Shown one piece after another: positions 5,381-14,046 of a stretch of 64,000 bases of DNA. The notes beneath the pieces were generated by a model that was given only the letters and a program-made list of their open reading frames with translations, was not told the origin of the DNA and searched no databases. Each line of letters opens with the position of its first letter. Within the stretch, counting starts at the first letter, position 1. The stretch is from Dioscorea cayenensis subsp. rotundata (lineage: Eukaryota > Streptophyta > Magnoliopsida > Dioscoreales > Dioscoreaceae), in the NCBI RefSeq assembly GCF_009730915.1, contig NC_052489.1, positions 992,001 through 1,056,000 on the forward strand. Direction: 5' to 3'. The position numbers and the translations under genes were made by a program.

Positions 5381-7353
5381 AATTAGGTTTTATCTGTCTT
5401 CCATAACCTTAAGGCCTTTTTGCTATTATTTCTTTCAGACAACAGAATATAACAAATCCATGTGCCCACCGTGGAATTTGTGTAACTACATCGCCGATGT
5501 TGCATTGCAAGCAGATCATAGCAAATTGGCAATCTTTGCCTTGGAATTTCTTGCTCGGTGGATTGCTTGTGGTGAAAATGCAAGACCACCTGTTCTGCTT
5601 TCAGTAGATGAAGGGTTAGTTGTGTCAGCATTTGGTCCCGCTGGCAGAACCTATAATTCAACTCTATTAGATGCTGCTTGGTCAATCCTGAGGTACTCAT
5701 TGCGTCAGAAGAGGGCTCCAAACCCATAAAAATATATTCGCATGCATCGTTGGGACAGTTTCAACGTGCTTTTAGTACCCTCAGTGAATTTGAAAATGCT
5801 TATGGAAATTCTGGTGAAGTTGAAGAGGAGCTGTTTTCCCCGTTCACCTCTTTATACACACTGGTTGTTGCATGTTGCAAAAATGGTTCTCAACATTGGA
5901 CTCGGTAAGAGTACTTATCCAAACCACTTTGAATTTATGATATTTAAGAAAAGAGTGTTGAATACCATTTATTTATGTCTAATAAGTCAAAAGATTTCAT
6001 TTCTTGGAGTGAACCCCTTTTCTCGTTGTATGTGAACTTCTGTATATATATTGATATTTGCATTCTTCACCTTCATAAGATTTAAACTACAATACAGACA
6101 GAATGCTAGTACTCACTAGGGATTCTCATTGCCACTGTGCAAGATTTCTAAATAGTTTCAGGTATATTAAAACTATCTGCTGTTTGAAATCCTTGTTTTC
6201 TTCAAAGAAAAGTGAGAATCTTAACACTACAATTTTAATCATAGATGTTTGTTTTATATGCATCAAAAATTTGTATATGCGAGTGGCCCGTCACTTTGAA
6301 TGCGTGCTACTACTACCCCACTTTCAATGCCTTACTTTAACCAATTAGATTATAATGGATCAGTTGGCAGCCTGGAACCAGCCTCTTTGGGCAGTGCAAT
6401 ATGAGCACATTGATGACCTATCATGCTGCCCTTATAATAGTATTTTATGAGAATGATTTTTGTTGAATTTTTTTGTGACTCTGTGGCAATATGATGTCAG
6501 GACAATGGGTATGAAGAATCTTTATTTTTTCTACGGCAAACTGAATATTATTATCTTGCAAGAAACCTAAATGGCCTTTTTTTCTTGACTAACTTGTCGA
6601 TTTACAAAGAACAGGTGTATGTTCAACAAGAGAATTTGAGCAATGCAGATCCTCCATACAAATCTGTTGCCGCACTCAACTGTGTAATCCTTTTCTGAGC
6701 CAATATATGGGACCTTGATAGAGCCTATGAGACTTTTGAGGCCATCAGCGGGAAGCTTGGAATGGCACCAGACATCCATTCTTATAATGCTTTAATTTGT
6801 GCATTTGGAAAGCTTAAAAAGGTTTGCATGGCATACATTCCGAGTGTCAATAGTTGTTTCAAATTAATTGTGAGCCCAATATATTTTGTTCCAGCTGTTT
6901 AAGCTGAAACATGTGCCATTTTACTTTTTTAACAGACATCCGAAGCCTCAAAGGTGTTTGAGCATCTAGTAAGCTTGGGCGTGAAGCTGAATGCCACCAC
7001 ATTTGCATTGCTGGTTGATGCGCATCTTATCAACCGAGACCAAAAGGCCGCTCTTTTTTAATAGATGACATGGTACAAGATCTATTTCACTCCTAAAGAG
7101 ACCTTTGCATTAATTCCAAAGATCTCTTGTGTTCACTGTTGAACAAATTTTGTATCAAGTAGGTCAAGGCTGGTTGGGCTCCTTCCAAAGAGACACTGAA
7201 GAAGGTGAGGAGGCGCTGTTCTCCAGAGATGGACTTTGATAGTGACGAAAAGGTTCAGTCGCTCGCTCGGCAGTTTAAATACAGGATGGACGCCAAATTT
7301 AGCAGGGAGATACTTTACAATCTGGAATACATTACTGAGTACTAGGATAAGGT
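5381..7353 (+). pseudogene. Decayed PPR gene, At1g26460-like, 5' end missing
   Basis: Four exons keep splice sites. 5439-5904 encodes TTEYNKSMCPPWNLCNYIAD through ALEFLARWIACGENARPPVL to EEELFSPFTSLY. 6615-6821 encodes ENLSNADPPYKSVAALN and PDIHSYNALICAFGKLKK. 6936 to about 7072 encodes TSEASKVFEHLVSLGVKLNA. 7163-7353 encodes APSKETLKKVRRRC to the end. These match, in order, the C-terminal two thirds of the mitochondrial PPR protein At1g26460. Lesions include a small deletion near 5728, a one-base loss near 5895, a stop after AALNCVILF, and a stop plus frame change near 7057. The upstream exons are replaced by the LINE. A related copy lies at 13480-14046. Confidence 0.85.
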
Positions 7354-8100
7354 AACCATCGAGTGTTTTGTAAGTCTGAATGCAAGGATATGACCCATAA
7401 TTTTTTATCATTGACTTAGCGGCTGACTATTGCTTTCATTTTTATTGAAATAATTTGTACTTACTTTCTTGTTTGCAAGACTACTGAGAACCATCTGCTG
7501 ATCACCGGAAAGTGAGTAGTAAATGTGTAAATTACTCATGTGTATTTGATTTTGACGGTTCTTCTGCATGAAGGTGATGTAGGATTTGGACATTAAGGCT
7601 ATTAATTTTCAAACCTATGTGGTGCTTTGTATTTTTTGGCCTTTGAAGGATGAATGGTAGCGTCCTTTTGCGTAGTTATTTAACTCACAATAAATCAACC
7701 CTACATTAATTTGTTATCAACATAATTGTCTCATGATCAGATTGTTTTTTTAAGATTATTTGTTCTTTTTTCCCCTTAAAATGGTCAATTATTTCATTAG
7801 AAAGTTCCATCTTGGAGCTTTACAATTGATTCTAAGATCAAACATGTTTGGTAGTAAAATTCTCATTGTATTGGACTTCCAAGCATGTGAAAAATTATAA
7901 TATGCCCTCATTGTATGTGTTCCTTATATGCAATATATATCCAGAAAAATACTAAATTTCTGGGAATATGCAGGAAGAATGCATTATTTATTATTCACAC
8001 AACTGGATAGAATCAGAATAAAACATATAGATACATTATTTATACATTTATTATTTATTGCAATCTATATAAACGTGAAGATCCTCTTACAGTGATTCAC
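7354..8100. other. Intergenic stretch, no gene seen
   Basis: AT-rich DNA between the PPR pseudogene and the 3' end of the NLR gene. No coding signal, RNA gene or clear repeat was seen. Confidence 0.6.
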
Positions 8101-8270
8101 AGAGAAAGCATAGAGGTGGTAATAAGTCTGTAGACAGCTAGATATATACCAATGCCAATAGGAGATACTTGGAGCACCGATGGTGGAGTTTTGCATTAAC
8201 TAGATTCAGAATCCTTTTGCATTTAGAAGATGAACCATCTGCACAGAAAACATGCACTTATTAGCACCAT

Positions 8271-8320: not shown

Positions 8321-11300
8321 TTAAAGGGATGTATATGTATGCCTCTGTAGGGATGTTTGTGGAAGCAATGCAACATCCAACTTAGGACAATCATCAATCT
8401 CGAAATTGCAAGTTGTTGGGAACTCAGAAATAATGAAGAGATTGTGGTTGCTGAAAAATGTGGCGGTTTTTAGTGATGCGAATACTTCAACTTTTTCAAG
8501 GCTATGTGCTTTGTAGATTGTGAGAGTGACCAAATTTTTTGCATGGCAAGCAAGACCTTGAGGAAGGGACTTGAGCTTTGGACAGTTGATGATCTCCAAT
8601 AATTCGAGGACAGGCTTCAACAAATGAGATTGATATGGCTCCCATGTCCACTCTTCCCACTCTGGCATGTCTTTCAGTATTAATGACTTTAAGCTAGGAA
8701 CATTGCTCCAGGGTCCAACGTCTAAATCAATGTGCTTTATGGACCATGCATCTTCAACACGAAGGTGTTCCAACAAAGGAAAGTGGTACAATGCTGGAAG
8801 TTCGGTGCAATATTTACACTTGAGCAAGTCAAGCCTTTTCAATTTAAGAAAAGGTAAATCCATGATCCATCGATGGAATCTTAGGCCGAAGTAACCATTG
8901 ATCTTGATATGTTCGATTAATGTGGACGAAGGGTCGAGAGCCTCAAAGCACTCTTGCATTTTCTCCTTCTCATCTTCTTCATATGGTTGACCCTCTCCTC
9001 GACAAGAAAGTGTGAGATTAGTGAGATTAGTGAGATTAATATGTTCTTGGAGTACCTTGCGAGGAAGATCATTGACAACCTCCAAATTCACAATGTGGAG
9101 GGTTTGGAGCTTCTTCAGTTCGCTAATTTCTGCTAATCTTTCGTAACTTGAAAATTCACTTGCCACGAATCCAACGAGACTAGTCAATTGAGGTAGTTGA
9201 TGTATCCAAAATGGCATGTACGTGAGTGATGTTTGGTGAACGTCAATGCTCCTGAGCTTATGCAATTTTAGAATGCTCTCAGGGAGATATAGTAGACTTC
9301 CACAGTATCTGAGGATTAAGTGTTGTAGATTGATGAGATCCCCTATGGCATCTGGAAGTGTCTTGATGGGTAAACATGACAGATTTAGGTGACGCAGGTG
9401 CAGGAGCTTGAATAGAGATTTTGGTAGAACTTTACAATCAGAGCCGCTTATATCCAAAATCCGCAAGAGCTTGAGCTTTTGGAAGAGATCTTTGGGTAGC
9501 TTGGTTATTTCAAGCTTGCTTGTGAAGACGAGCGTTCTCACTGATGTCTGTTTTTTCACAATATTTGGAAAGACATTCAATGGTGCATGATTTGTGATTA
9601 CCAAATGATGTAGCTTTGGTACGGAAGATGACGAGGGGAAAGTTGTGGCTTCTTCTAATGCTTTAACATCACCTTGAAAATAACCATAATTTTGAACCAA
9701 AGGTTGACCAAACGAGCTCATACTACCATGCATTTGGCACATGGTTTTATCATCATAATAAAAGCATTCTGCAGCAGCTGGTTGTAAAATATTGCTTTCA
9801 ACTAGTTCCATGTAGTAATCATTTGCTACATCTTCCAAAAGCTGCTGTGTCTTTTCCTTCTTTTCCACCAGCCCGGAAATAACCCATTGTTGGATCAAAA
9901 TGTTCTTGTCGAAGATATAATCCTCGGGGAAGAATGCACAGAAGATGACACATTGCTTGATATACGGCGACAAGTTCTCATAAGGGAGCAAATAAACTGG
10001 CTTAGGTAGTGTTATATTTGAGGGTTCTAGTAAAACAATAATATTTTCTAGGACCTTCTCCCACTCACTAAGATTTTTCTCTTTAGTATTTAGGATTCTA
10101 GCAATGGTTTTGATTGAAAGTGGAAGGCCATGACACTTGTTCACCATCTTTTTACCTATTTGTTCAAAGTGTTGCATGTTCCCCTTTTCACCATCATTAA
10201 ATAATAATTTACAAATCAAGGCCCAACCATCCTCCTCGGAGAATAATGGTAACTTATGTTTATAAATGCCCTCATGAGTTATGACACTTTCATACCTAGT
10301 TGTGACTAAAACATTGGCGTTAGTGATTAAATGCATATAGTCAATCATGTCTTTTAGTACTTTTGAATCATTAACATCATTGAGAACCACCAAAATTTCC
10401 TTATCTTGAATTAAATCACCACCAAATTTATTTATGGAATTCATTATTGTATGAAAAGTAGAATTCATGTGAACATCTACCCATATCGGTGGTGGCGACT
10501 GGAATTTATCTTTAATTGTTTGGTGGTTGAAGATTTTTGTAGCTAGAGTTGTTTTGCCAATGCCTCTCTCCCCGACAATCCCATAAACATGAACTCCCGG
10601 AGAACTACGGGTGATCATTAACTTCTTCACTAGGTTTTCGGTATCATGCTCTATTTCACCAACTAGATCAATATCATGTTCTACAGTGGTATTAAGATTA
10701 AATAAAGTCAAACTGTCGTTTAACTCTTGTTTGAGAATATCTTCCAATCTAGAGTTAATGATTTTAAGAGTTTTATTTTGTCTCTTAATTTGCCAGGGAA
10801 AATATATCAGGTGCTGGTATACATAAATGAAAGGAGAATACCAGTGTACCTGCAGTGGTTTATCCACTCTATCAAAAAACTAACTAACTAAATAAATAAA
10901 TAAATAACAATGTACCTCGGATTTCCTTGTCACCATTGTCTCCAATGTATCCTCAAGCTTAAATAATTCATCAATGATGTCTTGCAAGTCATTCGAAACA
11001 GCTCTCAAATTATGAAACAAGGTGTTGGTGGTGCCATACGGGACAATCATCATCTCCTCATCAGCATACTCCAACTTGCGGTAGGCCTTTTCTAGCCTTT
11101 CTTGTAACTTCGTGAGATCATCCCTCACTCTCGCCATTTTCTTCGTCATCTGATCCCGCAACATCCGCGATATGATCCGCAACATCTTAAGAACAACGGC
11201 CGGCATTATATCTTCAAAGACAATTGCTATACAAACGACCAGGCACTCTGCTATGTCTTCTTGTCGCTTCCAGAATTTATCCTTATCGATCATACGAACA

Positions 11301-11464
11301 ACCCTCAACATGATAAGAACAACCCACGACAAGATAAAAATAACCAAGGACATAACCAGCAACATCATAACAACAAAGCCAAACATTAATGGTATAACAA
11401 TGGACAACACAACCCACAACACAACCGAGAGCACAACCCGCAACATCATATCAACAACCCACAT
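8321..11464 (-). CDS. CC-NB-ARC-LRR immune receptor with a hydrophobic N-terminus
   Basis: Two exons, 10916-11464 and 8321-10849, joined in phase 0, give about 1,025 residues. Residues 1-55 are almost wholly hydrophobic (MWVVDMMLRVVLSVVLWVV and on); residues 95-180 resemble an Rx-type coiled coil (KLQERLEKAYRKLEYADEE, DIIDEL). The NB-ARC follows: P-loop GERGIGKTT at about 276-284, kinase-2 LVVLNDV at 336-342 (usually LVVLDDV), RNBS-B NVLVTTR, GLPL at 424-427, RNBS-D CVIFCAFFPEDY, and MHG at 556-558 where MHD is usual. About 12-14 LRRs fill residues 615-1000. The reading frame extends up to 11635; I chose the Met at 11464 because a TATA-like element (11548-11556) would place transcription start near 11520, but the start is uncertain. 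A 3' UTR intron is likely (donor at 8317, acceptor at 8240). Confidence 0.8.
10845..10917 (+). mobile_element. Truncated LINE tail with 7-bp target duplication, acting as the NLR intron
   Basis: The direct repeat TGTACCT stands at 10845-10851 and 10911-10917. Between them lie 59 bases: the LINE tail motif GTGGTTTATCCAC followed by an A-rich tail (CTAA and AAAT units). On the NLR strand the duplication reads AGGTACA, so its two copies give the donor G/GTACA and the acceptor CTGCAG/GTACA. Splicing 10850-10915 (66 bases) removes exactly the insertion plus one duplication copy and restores a continuous frame (KSE joined to VHWY). The reversed tail supplies a T-rich tract inside the intron. Confidence 0.8.
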
Positions 11465-11547
11465 ATTTAATAACACAATCCCACACACTCCCAATGTGTT
11501 TGTTTGTTTTGATTTGTCTGGTGCATTAATTAATTCCATGCATGGAC

Positions 11548-11556
11548 TTATATATA
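11548..11556 (-). promoter_or_regulatory. TATA-like element upstream of the NLR gene
   Basis: TATATATAAG on the minus strand, about 84 bases before the Met at 11464. It also lies inside the longer open frame, so it may be fortuitous. Confidence 0.3.
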
Positions 11557-11639
11557 GAGACTTAGAGAGAAGGATATATACATAACTTGCATGAGTCAGA
11601 GAATTTGTGCTTGCTTGTCTAGCTAACACCACCAAATTA

Positions 11640-12650
11640 ATTTATGTATAAATATTTACTATTATTTTATTGCTGAAGAATTATAAAATATGCATGGCTT
11701 TAATAATTTCTTTTGAGGAGACCGGGCATTGGATATATACCTTGCTTTGCTTTCATTGAACTCCACCTCCAAAGGGATTAGTGACAGAATTAAGATATTT
11801 TAATTAAATCAATCATTTTGAAAATTAATACCTGACTAGTAATTAAGGAGCTATATATATATTGTGTTATAAATTTCTTTAAATTGGCATGTCTAATATT
11901 TTTTTTCTTTTTTTCCATTGAACCTAGCTATTATATTGACATGAATCCCTTAATTTTCATAAAGAACAAATAATTTGAAATCAATATATATATCGTTGAG
12001 TCTTAAACAAACACATCTCTTCAATAAACAACAACAACAACATATCTTCTACATTTAATTGGAAGTAGACTAAATTCATTAAATATTAATCAAAATTATA
12101 TAGGAGAATTTATGCTTGCTTGTGTAAGACCGCCAACCTTTTTTTTCCCAAAGGAGATGGCATTGCATATATGCTTTGCTTTTGGCCTTTGTTTTTGTCT
12201 TTTGCCTTTATGTCTATCTTTGTACTTGCTTTTTTTATTTTTTTAATATAATTTATAGCTTATTTTTTAAAAAAAAATTATATATAATTGCAATAATTTA
12301 TAATAAAAATTGAGGAGTTCTTTTAGGTAAAAGTATACAAACCTTAATTCTCACCATAAAAATTAGTCATAAGATTTACATTTTTATTCAAATATATAAA
12401 GGAAAAATTTACTTTAATCTAAATGTAACTTACTGTGTTAATCAAAAGCAACTCTTGTTTAGTATTGACTTAATTAATTATCAACTAAACAACTGATTGA
12501 AAGCTTTGAAACAACTCCATCTTCTTGGATATCAAACACAAATAAAAAATATTTATATTTATGTTGTCCACCATTAATAAACCTTTAGTTTTGTTAGATT
12601 TTTCAAGCATTTTTACTTAAAAATGAGTTTAGGTGATATAATTCACTGGT
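11640..12650. other. NLR upstream region, AT-rich, no gene seen
   Basis: Contains only AT-rich DNA, a CAA-type run near 12030, and short repeats. It is probably promoter and intergenic sequence of the NLR gene. Confidence 0.5.
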
Positions 12651-13028: not shown

Positions 13029-13156
13029 AATTATAGAAATGGTTTTGTGGTGTGAGGGATTTTGTTATGCTTTTGTGTCAGTTTGAGTCTATACTATGTT
13101 TTCAGCTTAATTAAAGTGGTTTATCCACCCTTTCAAAAAAAAAAAAATTATAGAAA
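13029..13156 (+). mobile_element. 5'-truncated LINE tail with 11-bp target duplication
   Basis: AATTATAGAAA occurs at 13029-13039 and 13146-13156. Between them are about 106 bases ending in AAAGTGGTTTATCCACCC, TTTC and a 13-base poly(A). It is the same tail motif as in the NLR intron, and the cleanest example of the family in this window. Confidence 0.8.
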
Positions 13157-13479: not shown

Positions 13480-14046
13480 AAATTAGGTTCTTTGTCTTCC
13501 ATAACATTGAGACATTTCTGTTTTTATTTCTATCAGACAACTGAACAGAACAAATCCATGTGCCCAACCTGAAATTTGTGTAACTACATTGCCGATGTTG
13601 CATTGCAATATATAATTTGCTGCTATATATGATCTGATTAATTGCAAATTGGCATTCTTTGCATTGAAATTTCTTGCTCATGGTGAAAATGCAAGACCAG
13701 TACCGGTTTTTTTCAGTAGATTAAGGATTAATTAGTTATGTTGGCATTTAGAGCCTATGAGACACTTTTGAGGCCATCAGTGGGAAACTTAGAATTACAC
13801 CAGACATCCATTCTTATAATGCTTTAATTTGTGCATTCGGAAAAGCTTATAAATGGTTTGGATGGCATACGTAACTCAAAGGTGTCACTAGTTAGTTGTT
13901 TCAAAGCTGCTTTCTCTCTCTCTCTCTCTCTCTTTGTAATAGTCTAATAGATGATAATATGGTACAAGATCTCTTCCACTCCTAAAAGCAACCTTGCACT
14001 AATTCCAAAGATCTCTTGTGTTCACTATTGAACAAATTTCCCATCC
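13480..14046 (+). pseudogene. Second, heavily deleted copy of the PPR gene
   Basis: It shares exon and intron sequence with 5381-7160: the intron end CTTCCATAAC, the exon start ACAACTGAACAGAACAAATC, the block encoding PDIHSYNALICAF (about 13751-13852), and the stretch AATTCCAAAGATCTCTTGTG. Large parts between are missing and stops are frequent. Because intron sequence is shared, it arose by DNA duplication, not by reverse transcription. A TC run sits at 13913-13933. The NLR gene lies between the two copies. Confidence 0.8.

Follow-up and report, generated by a model that had tools for sequence, protein, structure and literature searches.

The window analyzed here is a 64,000-nucleotide stretch (G000:C19:992001-1056000) of a plant genome of 584 Mb in 2249 contigs. 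On its minus strand lies a CC-NLR gene whose reading is split over two open reading frames. The downstream ORF (8321-10879) is matched above cut-off by NB-ARC, winged-helix, and LRR models, and the Rx_N match to the upstream ORF (10880-11641) falls below its curated cut-off. The two ORFs share one frame, and their sole separator is a TAG at 10880-10882, at which the unjoined NLR protein ends after 219 amino acids, as a preliminary description of this DNA had predicted for an unspliced receptor. That description had also proposed that a 66-base intron splits the gene and that its removal restores the frame exactly, and the joined reading from the ATG at 11539 indeed runs for 1050 codons. The features are as follows (a slash marks a splice junction or a nick).

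8321-10849, minus strand: CC-NLR exon 2, which holds the NB-ARC, winged-helix, and LRR regions and the stop codon, from ORFs and domain models.
10916-11539, minus strand: coding exon 1 (hydrophobic N-terminal stretch and Rx_N-like coiled coil; ATG at 11539), from the ORF and the sub-cut-off Rx_N match.
10850-10915, minus strand: inferred spliceosomal intron, 66 nt, GT...CAG, phase 0 (GAG/GTA), from eight of eight site-covering gene copies.
10852-10902, plus strand: LINE-derived part, 51 bp under a 15-bp duplication model (10852-10910 under a 7-bp model), from the LINE match; 22 nt of LINE 3'UTR end (10852-10873) and then an A-rich tail, antisense to the NLR gene.
10837-10851, plus strand: putative copy of the target duplication on the 5' side of the LINE, AATACCAGTGTACCT; on the gene strand, the acceptor AG and the first exon-2 bases.
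10903-10917, plus strand: putative copy of the target duplication on the tail side of the LINE, AATAACAATGTACCT; it holds the donor AG/GT when read in gene direction.
10880-10882, minus strand: in-frame TAG within the insert, where the protein would end if the insert were kept.
13029-13156, plus strand: second short LINE copy with an identical 3' end, upstream of the NLR gene, with the repeat AATTATAGAAA at 13029-13039 and 13146-13156.

Several further observations concern the gene and its surroundings. The NLR N terminus is strongly hydrophobic before the coiled coil (11285-11497, minus strand), with 19-residue windows above 1.6 starting at residues 15-67 and around residues 95-105. Similar stretches are seen by eye in other copies of the clade described below, except L016, whose N terminus differs; the stretch in the window gene could represent a membrane segment or an artefact of low complexity. 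The NB-ARC region contains the residues MCQMHGSM, in which we take MHG to occupy the position of the MHD motif. Two similar coding fragments, which by eye we take to be PPR-like, flank the gene on both sides (6720-6830 and 13750-13860), and their similarity suggests that the gene sits between duplicated segments. The second LINE copy lies ~1.5 kb upstream of the NLR start codon.

On the plus strand, the heptamer TGTACCT (AGGTACA on the gene strand) occurs at 10845-10851 and again at 10911-10917, with a spacing of 59 bp between the copies (59 + 7 = 66). A GT at 10915-10914 and an AG at 10851-10850 delimit the 66-nt intron, which reads GTACATTG...CCACTGCAG on the gene strand, lies in phase 0 between GAG and GTA, and combines one duplication copy with about 51 bp from the 3' end of a LINE in reverse orientation. 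An AGGT-containing repeat that supplies both donor and acceptor context was thus correctly recognized in the preliminary description. The donor, AG/GTACAT, lacks the consensus bases at +4 and +5, and the intron is short. The LINE 5' junction shows one base of microhomology (locus L032 has TTGCAG), which leaves two possible sources for the acceptor A.

On the plus strand the insert opens with the 22 nt GCAGTGGTTTATCCACTCTATC and continues with the A-rich tail. This body has an exact 17-nt word in common with the 3' ends of LINE copies; scored as a 22-nt non-repeat sequence against 30 LINE-family loci it reaches 17, a value attained by none of 200 shuffles (maximum 13), which bears out the earlier reading of the insert as the tail of a LINE, reversed with respect to the gene. 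In the genome, the best match for the region of the insert spans 57 bp at 91% (E 7.9e-11) and is partly simple repeat. A genome search with the related locus L032 yielded at least 41 matches, at which the 3' ends read ...TTTTAATATATTGCAGTGGTTTATCCACTTTTTCAAAAA and variants thereof; GTGGTTTATCCAC is exact in 18 of the 30 fetched loci, and copies carrying this 3' end are present on many contigs. Because the family varies at that end, an exact-pattern search for it found only two places, both near the NLR gene. One family member has a zf-RVT region split by a stop, the second piece of which matches PF13966 above cut-off (E 1.1e-8), and this fits a LINE. The insert carries the features of a 5'-truncated LINE: the element's 3' end with an A-rich tail, truncation at the 5' side, and a target duplication.

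A scan for flanking repeats around 28 LINE copies found seven with a repeat longer than any of 30 shuffles, and the remaining 21 had none above the shuffled controls. L052 (minus strand, 25-bp repeat) was set aside, its two repeat copies lying side by side. In six inspected siblings and the second window copy, the flanking repeats are 11-15 bp long and the inserts range from 64 to 1324 bp (repeat/insert in bp: L058 15/64; L068 14/70; L045 15/280; second window copy 11/106; L050 13/914; L056 15/1324; L070 13/1303). The 11-bp repeat of the window copy does not exceed its controls (longest chance match 12 in 30 shuffles), and the L070 repeat is doubtful, with non-A sequence between tail and repeat. 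LINE target duplications are generally about 7-20 bp long, and both a 15-bp duplication and a very short copy would fit this family.

A DNA search with the gene returned 31 matches, among which eight gene copies, the window gene (L009) included, cover the intron site. The insert lies at the identical codon boundary in all eight, the other seven being 82-90% identical to the window gene at the DNA level. Two of the eight are on contig C877; this contig might represent the C19 cluster in an alternative haplotype, and the distinct loci may therefore be fewer. The preliminary description had taken the intron to be new in a single gene; it is instead shared by all eight copies and older than their divergence, exon-2 dS reaching about 0.2 among the four intact copies. 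The inserts measure 66, 70, 75, 79, 75, 79, 76, and 70 nt, five of these lengths not being multiples of three. All eight begin with GT and end with CAG, and removal keeps a single frame across the site in each. Immediately before the donor the exons differ in length, by eye, in steps of whole codons. After joining, L009, L012, L014, and L016 are open for 1028-1084 codons from stop to stop; these four intact copies retain 822-866 open exon-2 codons at pairwise exon-2 dN of 0.067-0.150. L012 lies at C877:11310-14409, L014 at C19:975850-979106, and L016 at C19:5221206-5224094; removal of 66, 70, 76, and 70 nt, respectively, from the four would give the junction GAG/GTA, or GGG/GTA in L014 and AAG/GTA in L016. 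The remaining four carry further stops downstream, and their exon 2 is open for only 40, 73, 198, and 355 codons.

The splice sites have also changed among the copies. A deletion in L016 leaves CACAG, and an insertion in L013 leaves TACAG. The donor of L014 (C19:974350-980606) now reads GGG/GTAAGT, which we take to be close to consensus, as if the splice site had matured. T content is 46-55% and A+T content 74-83% across the eight introns, in keeping with the earlier expectation that a reversed A-rich tail would give a T-rich tract, and by eye a TTGAT or TTTAT, presumably a branch-like motif, occurs some 15-30 nt before the acceptor. Some unspliced readings are open as well. The 75-nt insert of L015 is in frame and free of stops, so that its unspliced reading ends, like the joined one, at a stop 120 nt into exon 2. 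For L016 and L010, the longest frame that crosses the site without splicing begins just before the insert and continues into exon 2. Values of dN/dS are 0.50-0.74 in exon 2 (six pairs) and 0.40-1.97 in the last 80 codons of exon 1 (15 pairs). These point to weak purifying selection on the NLR copies and therefore do not prove translation of the joined product. Splicing of the insert is nevertheless supported by the comparative conservation of frame and splice sites.

The duplication appears longer than the seven bases first assigned to it. The start of the intron, together with the last two exon bases (AGGTACATTGTTATT), and the sequence at which the exon resumes (AGGTACACTGGTATT) are identical at 13 of 15 positions, so the element is flanked by an AGGT-containing repeat of either 7/7 or 13/15 bases. 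Beyond the GTA, 8 of 10 bases match in the window gene (P 0.0005 with intron letters shuffled), in a comparison whose 15-bp length was picked after looking and whose ten bases include three from the 7-bp repeat. The 7-bp repeat alone is weak evidence because AG/GTA...AG/GTA is expected at many introns; four of its seven identical bases (AGGT) are common at intron ends. The corresponding shuffle P values are 0.0005 for L009, 0.0006 for L012, 0.053 for L011, 0.0052 for L010, 0.018 for L015, 0.0043 for L013, 0.0046 for L014, and 0.62 for L016. They come from related sequences and are not independent tests, and the signal is uneven, two of the eight (L011 and L016) exceeding 0.05. The exonic and intronic copies of the window gene differ at two of 15 bases; the exon copy of L014 (GTACGTTGTTATT) is nearer to the intronic copies. 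Because the inspected sibling copies have repeats of 11-15 bp, and because a nick after ...TTGTTATT would better suit a T-rich primer, we judged the 7-bp repeat less likely to be the full target duplication, which is probably 15 bp.

Sequences outside the clade bear on the polarity of the change. A protein search across the site gave 152 matches (E up to 10), and among those listed, 41 non-clade rows spanning the site were picked by eye (12 at E ≤ 0.001, the weakest at 4.25); all 41 span it in one frame, 40 of them without a stop. Eight distant NLRs that we fetched are all open over the stretch read and have no intron there. The preliminary description had pointed to relatives sharing an intron of unrelated sequence as evidence against its proposal; the relatives within the clade share the same LINE-derived intron. 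It had further looked to close relatives for an intronless site with a single copy of the repeat; an intronless site with one AGGT was found in a distant NLR, L074, the closer relatives on C16 and C424 being broken.

L074, the nearest outgroup, has 37% amino acid identity and is also located on C19, some 117 kb away from the window gene. Its aligned codon reads CAG/GTGTGTTGTT, or in longer form ACTGCTCAG/GTGTGTTGTTTCTCTCC (CAG/GTGTG), in which TTGTT resembles the intronic copy. The aligned residues are V-C-C-F-S-P in L074, V-H-W-Y-S-P in the window gene, and V-R-C-Y-S-P in L014. The next outgroup, L075, reads TCTTCA/TTGTGCTGG and lacks AGGT, so that the single-AGGT intronless state is seen in one of the two outgroup sites written out as DNA. 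With only 24-37% amino acid identity to the intronless relatives, the empty site rests on their alignment. Three other sequences were considered as closer empty sites and rejected, those on C16 and C424 breaking off before or at the site. L041 (C16) breaks off in the coiled coil, before the intron site (locus positions 6900-8200), and is followed by what we take to be a copia-like retroelement; L042 (C424) matches only before and well after the site, the gap between its matches being as in L041; and L043 can be aligned only from about 40 nt past the acceptor onward.

Because the distant NLRs read through the site, absence of the intron appears to be the older state, and the comparison places the gain in the common ancestor of the eight-copy clade, before the copies diverged. 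In a tree rooted on L074, L016 is next to the root (support 0.969), and its exon-2 dS from the other three intact copies is 0.195-0.215. At an assumed rate of 6.5e-9 substitutions per site per year, this would give, very roughly and ignoring gene conversion, a lower bound of ~15 million years for the age of the insertion.

We consider it highly probable that a LINE tail inserted at an AGGT-containing site in the ancestor of the clade and that the two copies of the resulting duplication became splice sites. The empty site before insertion would have held one AGGTACRTTGTTATT copy. LINE RNA would have been reverse-transcribed, by target-primed reverse transcription, at a T-rich nick on the coding strand (5'-AGGTACATTGTTATT/CTCC-3'), that is, at ...TTGTTATT/CTCC, and the template would have been lost early, after about 22 nt of 3'UTR. 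Fill-in of the staggered cut could then have duplicated about 15 bp holding AGGT at the codon boundary, giving an intron of 13 nt of duplication, 51 nt of LINE, and the AG of the second copy. In this antisense orientation the A-tail would have turned into the T-rich tract, and the LINE 3'UTR end would have contributed the C before the duplicated AG. With AG/GT in the first copy and CAG/GT in the second, the spliceosome could therefore use the two as donor and acceptor, respectively. The insert and one duplication copy would be excised, the protein would be unchanged, and the insertion may have been fixed without loss of function.

Other readings of the locus have to be weighed against this one. 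The insertion could have been plainly disruptive, leaving pseudogenes truncated after the coiled coil or an exon 2 expressed alone from an internal ATG. The early stop in the unspliced window gene, the additional stops of four of the eight copies, the unspliced frames of L016 and L010 that cross into exon 2, the open, in-frame insert of L015, and the weakness of selection would all agree with this. Yet GT and CAG are kept in all eight copies though five inserts have out-of-frame lengths, indels in the exon next to the donor comprise whole codons, no copy loses the frame on joining, and four copies maintain their long exon-2 readings despite the amino acid divergence among them; we therefore regard disruption as improbable. 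Still less probable is that the intron predates the LINE, which would later have inserted into it or taken its place. With an intron common to all eight copies, a pre-LINE stage is conceivable, but only duplication and LINE sequence lie between the splice sites, and other CC-NLRs in this genome are uninterrupted at that position.

The LINE sequence might alternatively be a scrap of cDNA captured during repair of a staggered double-strand break, with no LINE integration. Integrated 5'-truncated LINEs usually show an exact 3' terminus, an A-rich tail, and a duplication. The end of the insert coincides with the LINE 3' terminus, an A-rich tail is present, and the duplication is of the size found at sibling insertions, including the 64- and 70-bp copies. 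On the other hand, the LINE part is only about 51 bp, and a study of Daphnia describes neointrons made at breaks that show direct repeats at their ends (PMC4202315). We give this origin a small chance, somewhat below that of a disruptive insertion and about that of an older intron. LINE integration with recruitment of the duplicated AGGT as splice sites thus remains our preferred reading.

Introns made by transposons have precedents in plants, which the NLR intron resembles in this respect: Iwamoto et al. reportedly traced a rice CatA intron to a SINE-like element in 1998, and Giroux et al. are said to have described maize Ds introns in 1994. The element classes in those cases differ from a LINE, and here the LINE contributes only about 51 bp. 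The model in which a transposon inserts at AGGT, the protosplice site, is itself published, and a table in that paper counts 35 introns made by transposons, found in Oryza, Drosophila, Oikopleura, and Zea, with the text adding that thousands of novel introns defy the proposed mechanisms (PMC3443670, Table 1). As in the NLR gene, the duplication in that model supplies the AG/GT donor and AG/G acceptor and the coding sequence is restored exactly; unlike the NLR intron, the cases named in the passages available to us include none made by an antisense LINE tail alone in an immune receptor (PMC3443670). Tandem genomic duplication of AGGT segments, as in potato RdRp (PMC4974935), likewise provides two AGGT copies as donor and acceptor, according to the published model (PMC3443670), whereas in the NLR intron a LINE 3' end, not duplicated exon, lies between them.

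The introners of Florenciella lack splice sites of their own and recruit both where they insert, and the same report states that no evidence of introners was found in land plants (PMC9860276). They are like the NLR intron in that both splice sites are recruited at the target and coding length is unchanged, and they are described there as multi-copy intron-making families, many with DNA-transposon marks (PMC9860276). The NLR intron, in contrast, would stem from one retroelement event spread by gene duplication. Among the literature matches listed (titles and abstract openings of open-licence PMC papers), none reports a LINE-made intron in a plant NLR.

The reversed LINE end brings a T-rich tract, a TTGAT or TTTAT resembling a branch site, and a terminal ...CCACTGC resembling an acceptor. 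We entertain as a long shot the idea that it is a ready-made intron, which would give land plants a slow equivalent of introners based on LINEs. A search with the reversed LINE end plus CAGG gave six exact matches, all in the NLR clade, against one match for the control. Four one-mismatch loci elsewhere showed no AGGT duplication by eye, at the one truncation point searched, and no other intron from the same LINE end was seen with this one pattern and the four loci read. If the idea were true, introns would arise whenever a short antisense copy hits AGGT, and such events would be hidden because each is only about 60 bp.

The mechanism is already in print, and the NLR intron is an unusually legible plant case of it. 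Source-traceable intron gains are few, and the case for the transposon-AGGT route has been indirect. For the NLR intron, a single genome holds the source family, the duplication, a related site that lacks the intron, and the subsequent history of eight copies, which makes the route testable by ordinary RT-PCR. The case suggests that splicing can neutralize a very short LINE insertion in a coding exon as soon as it arises.
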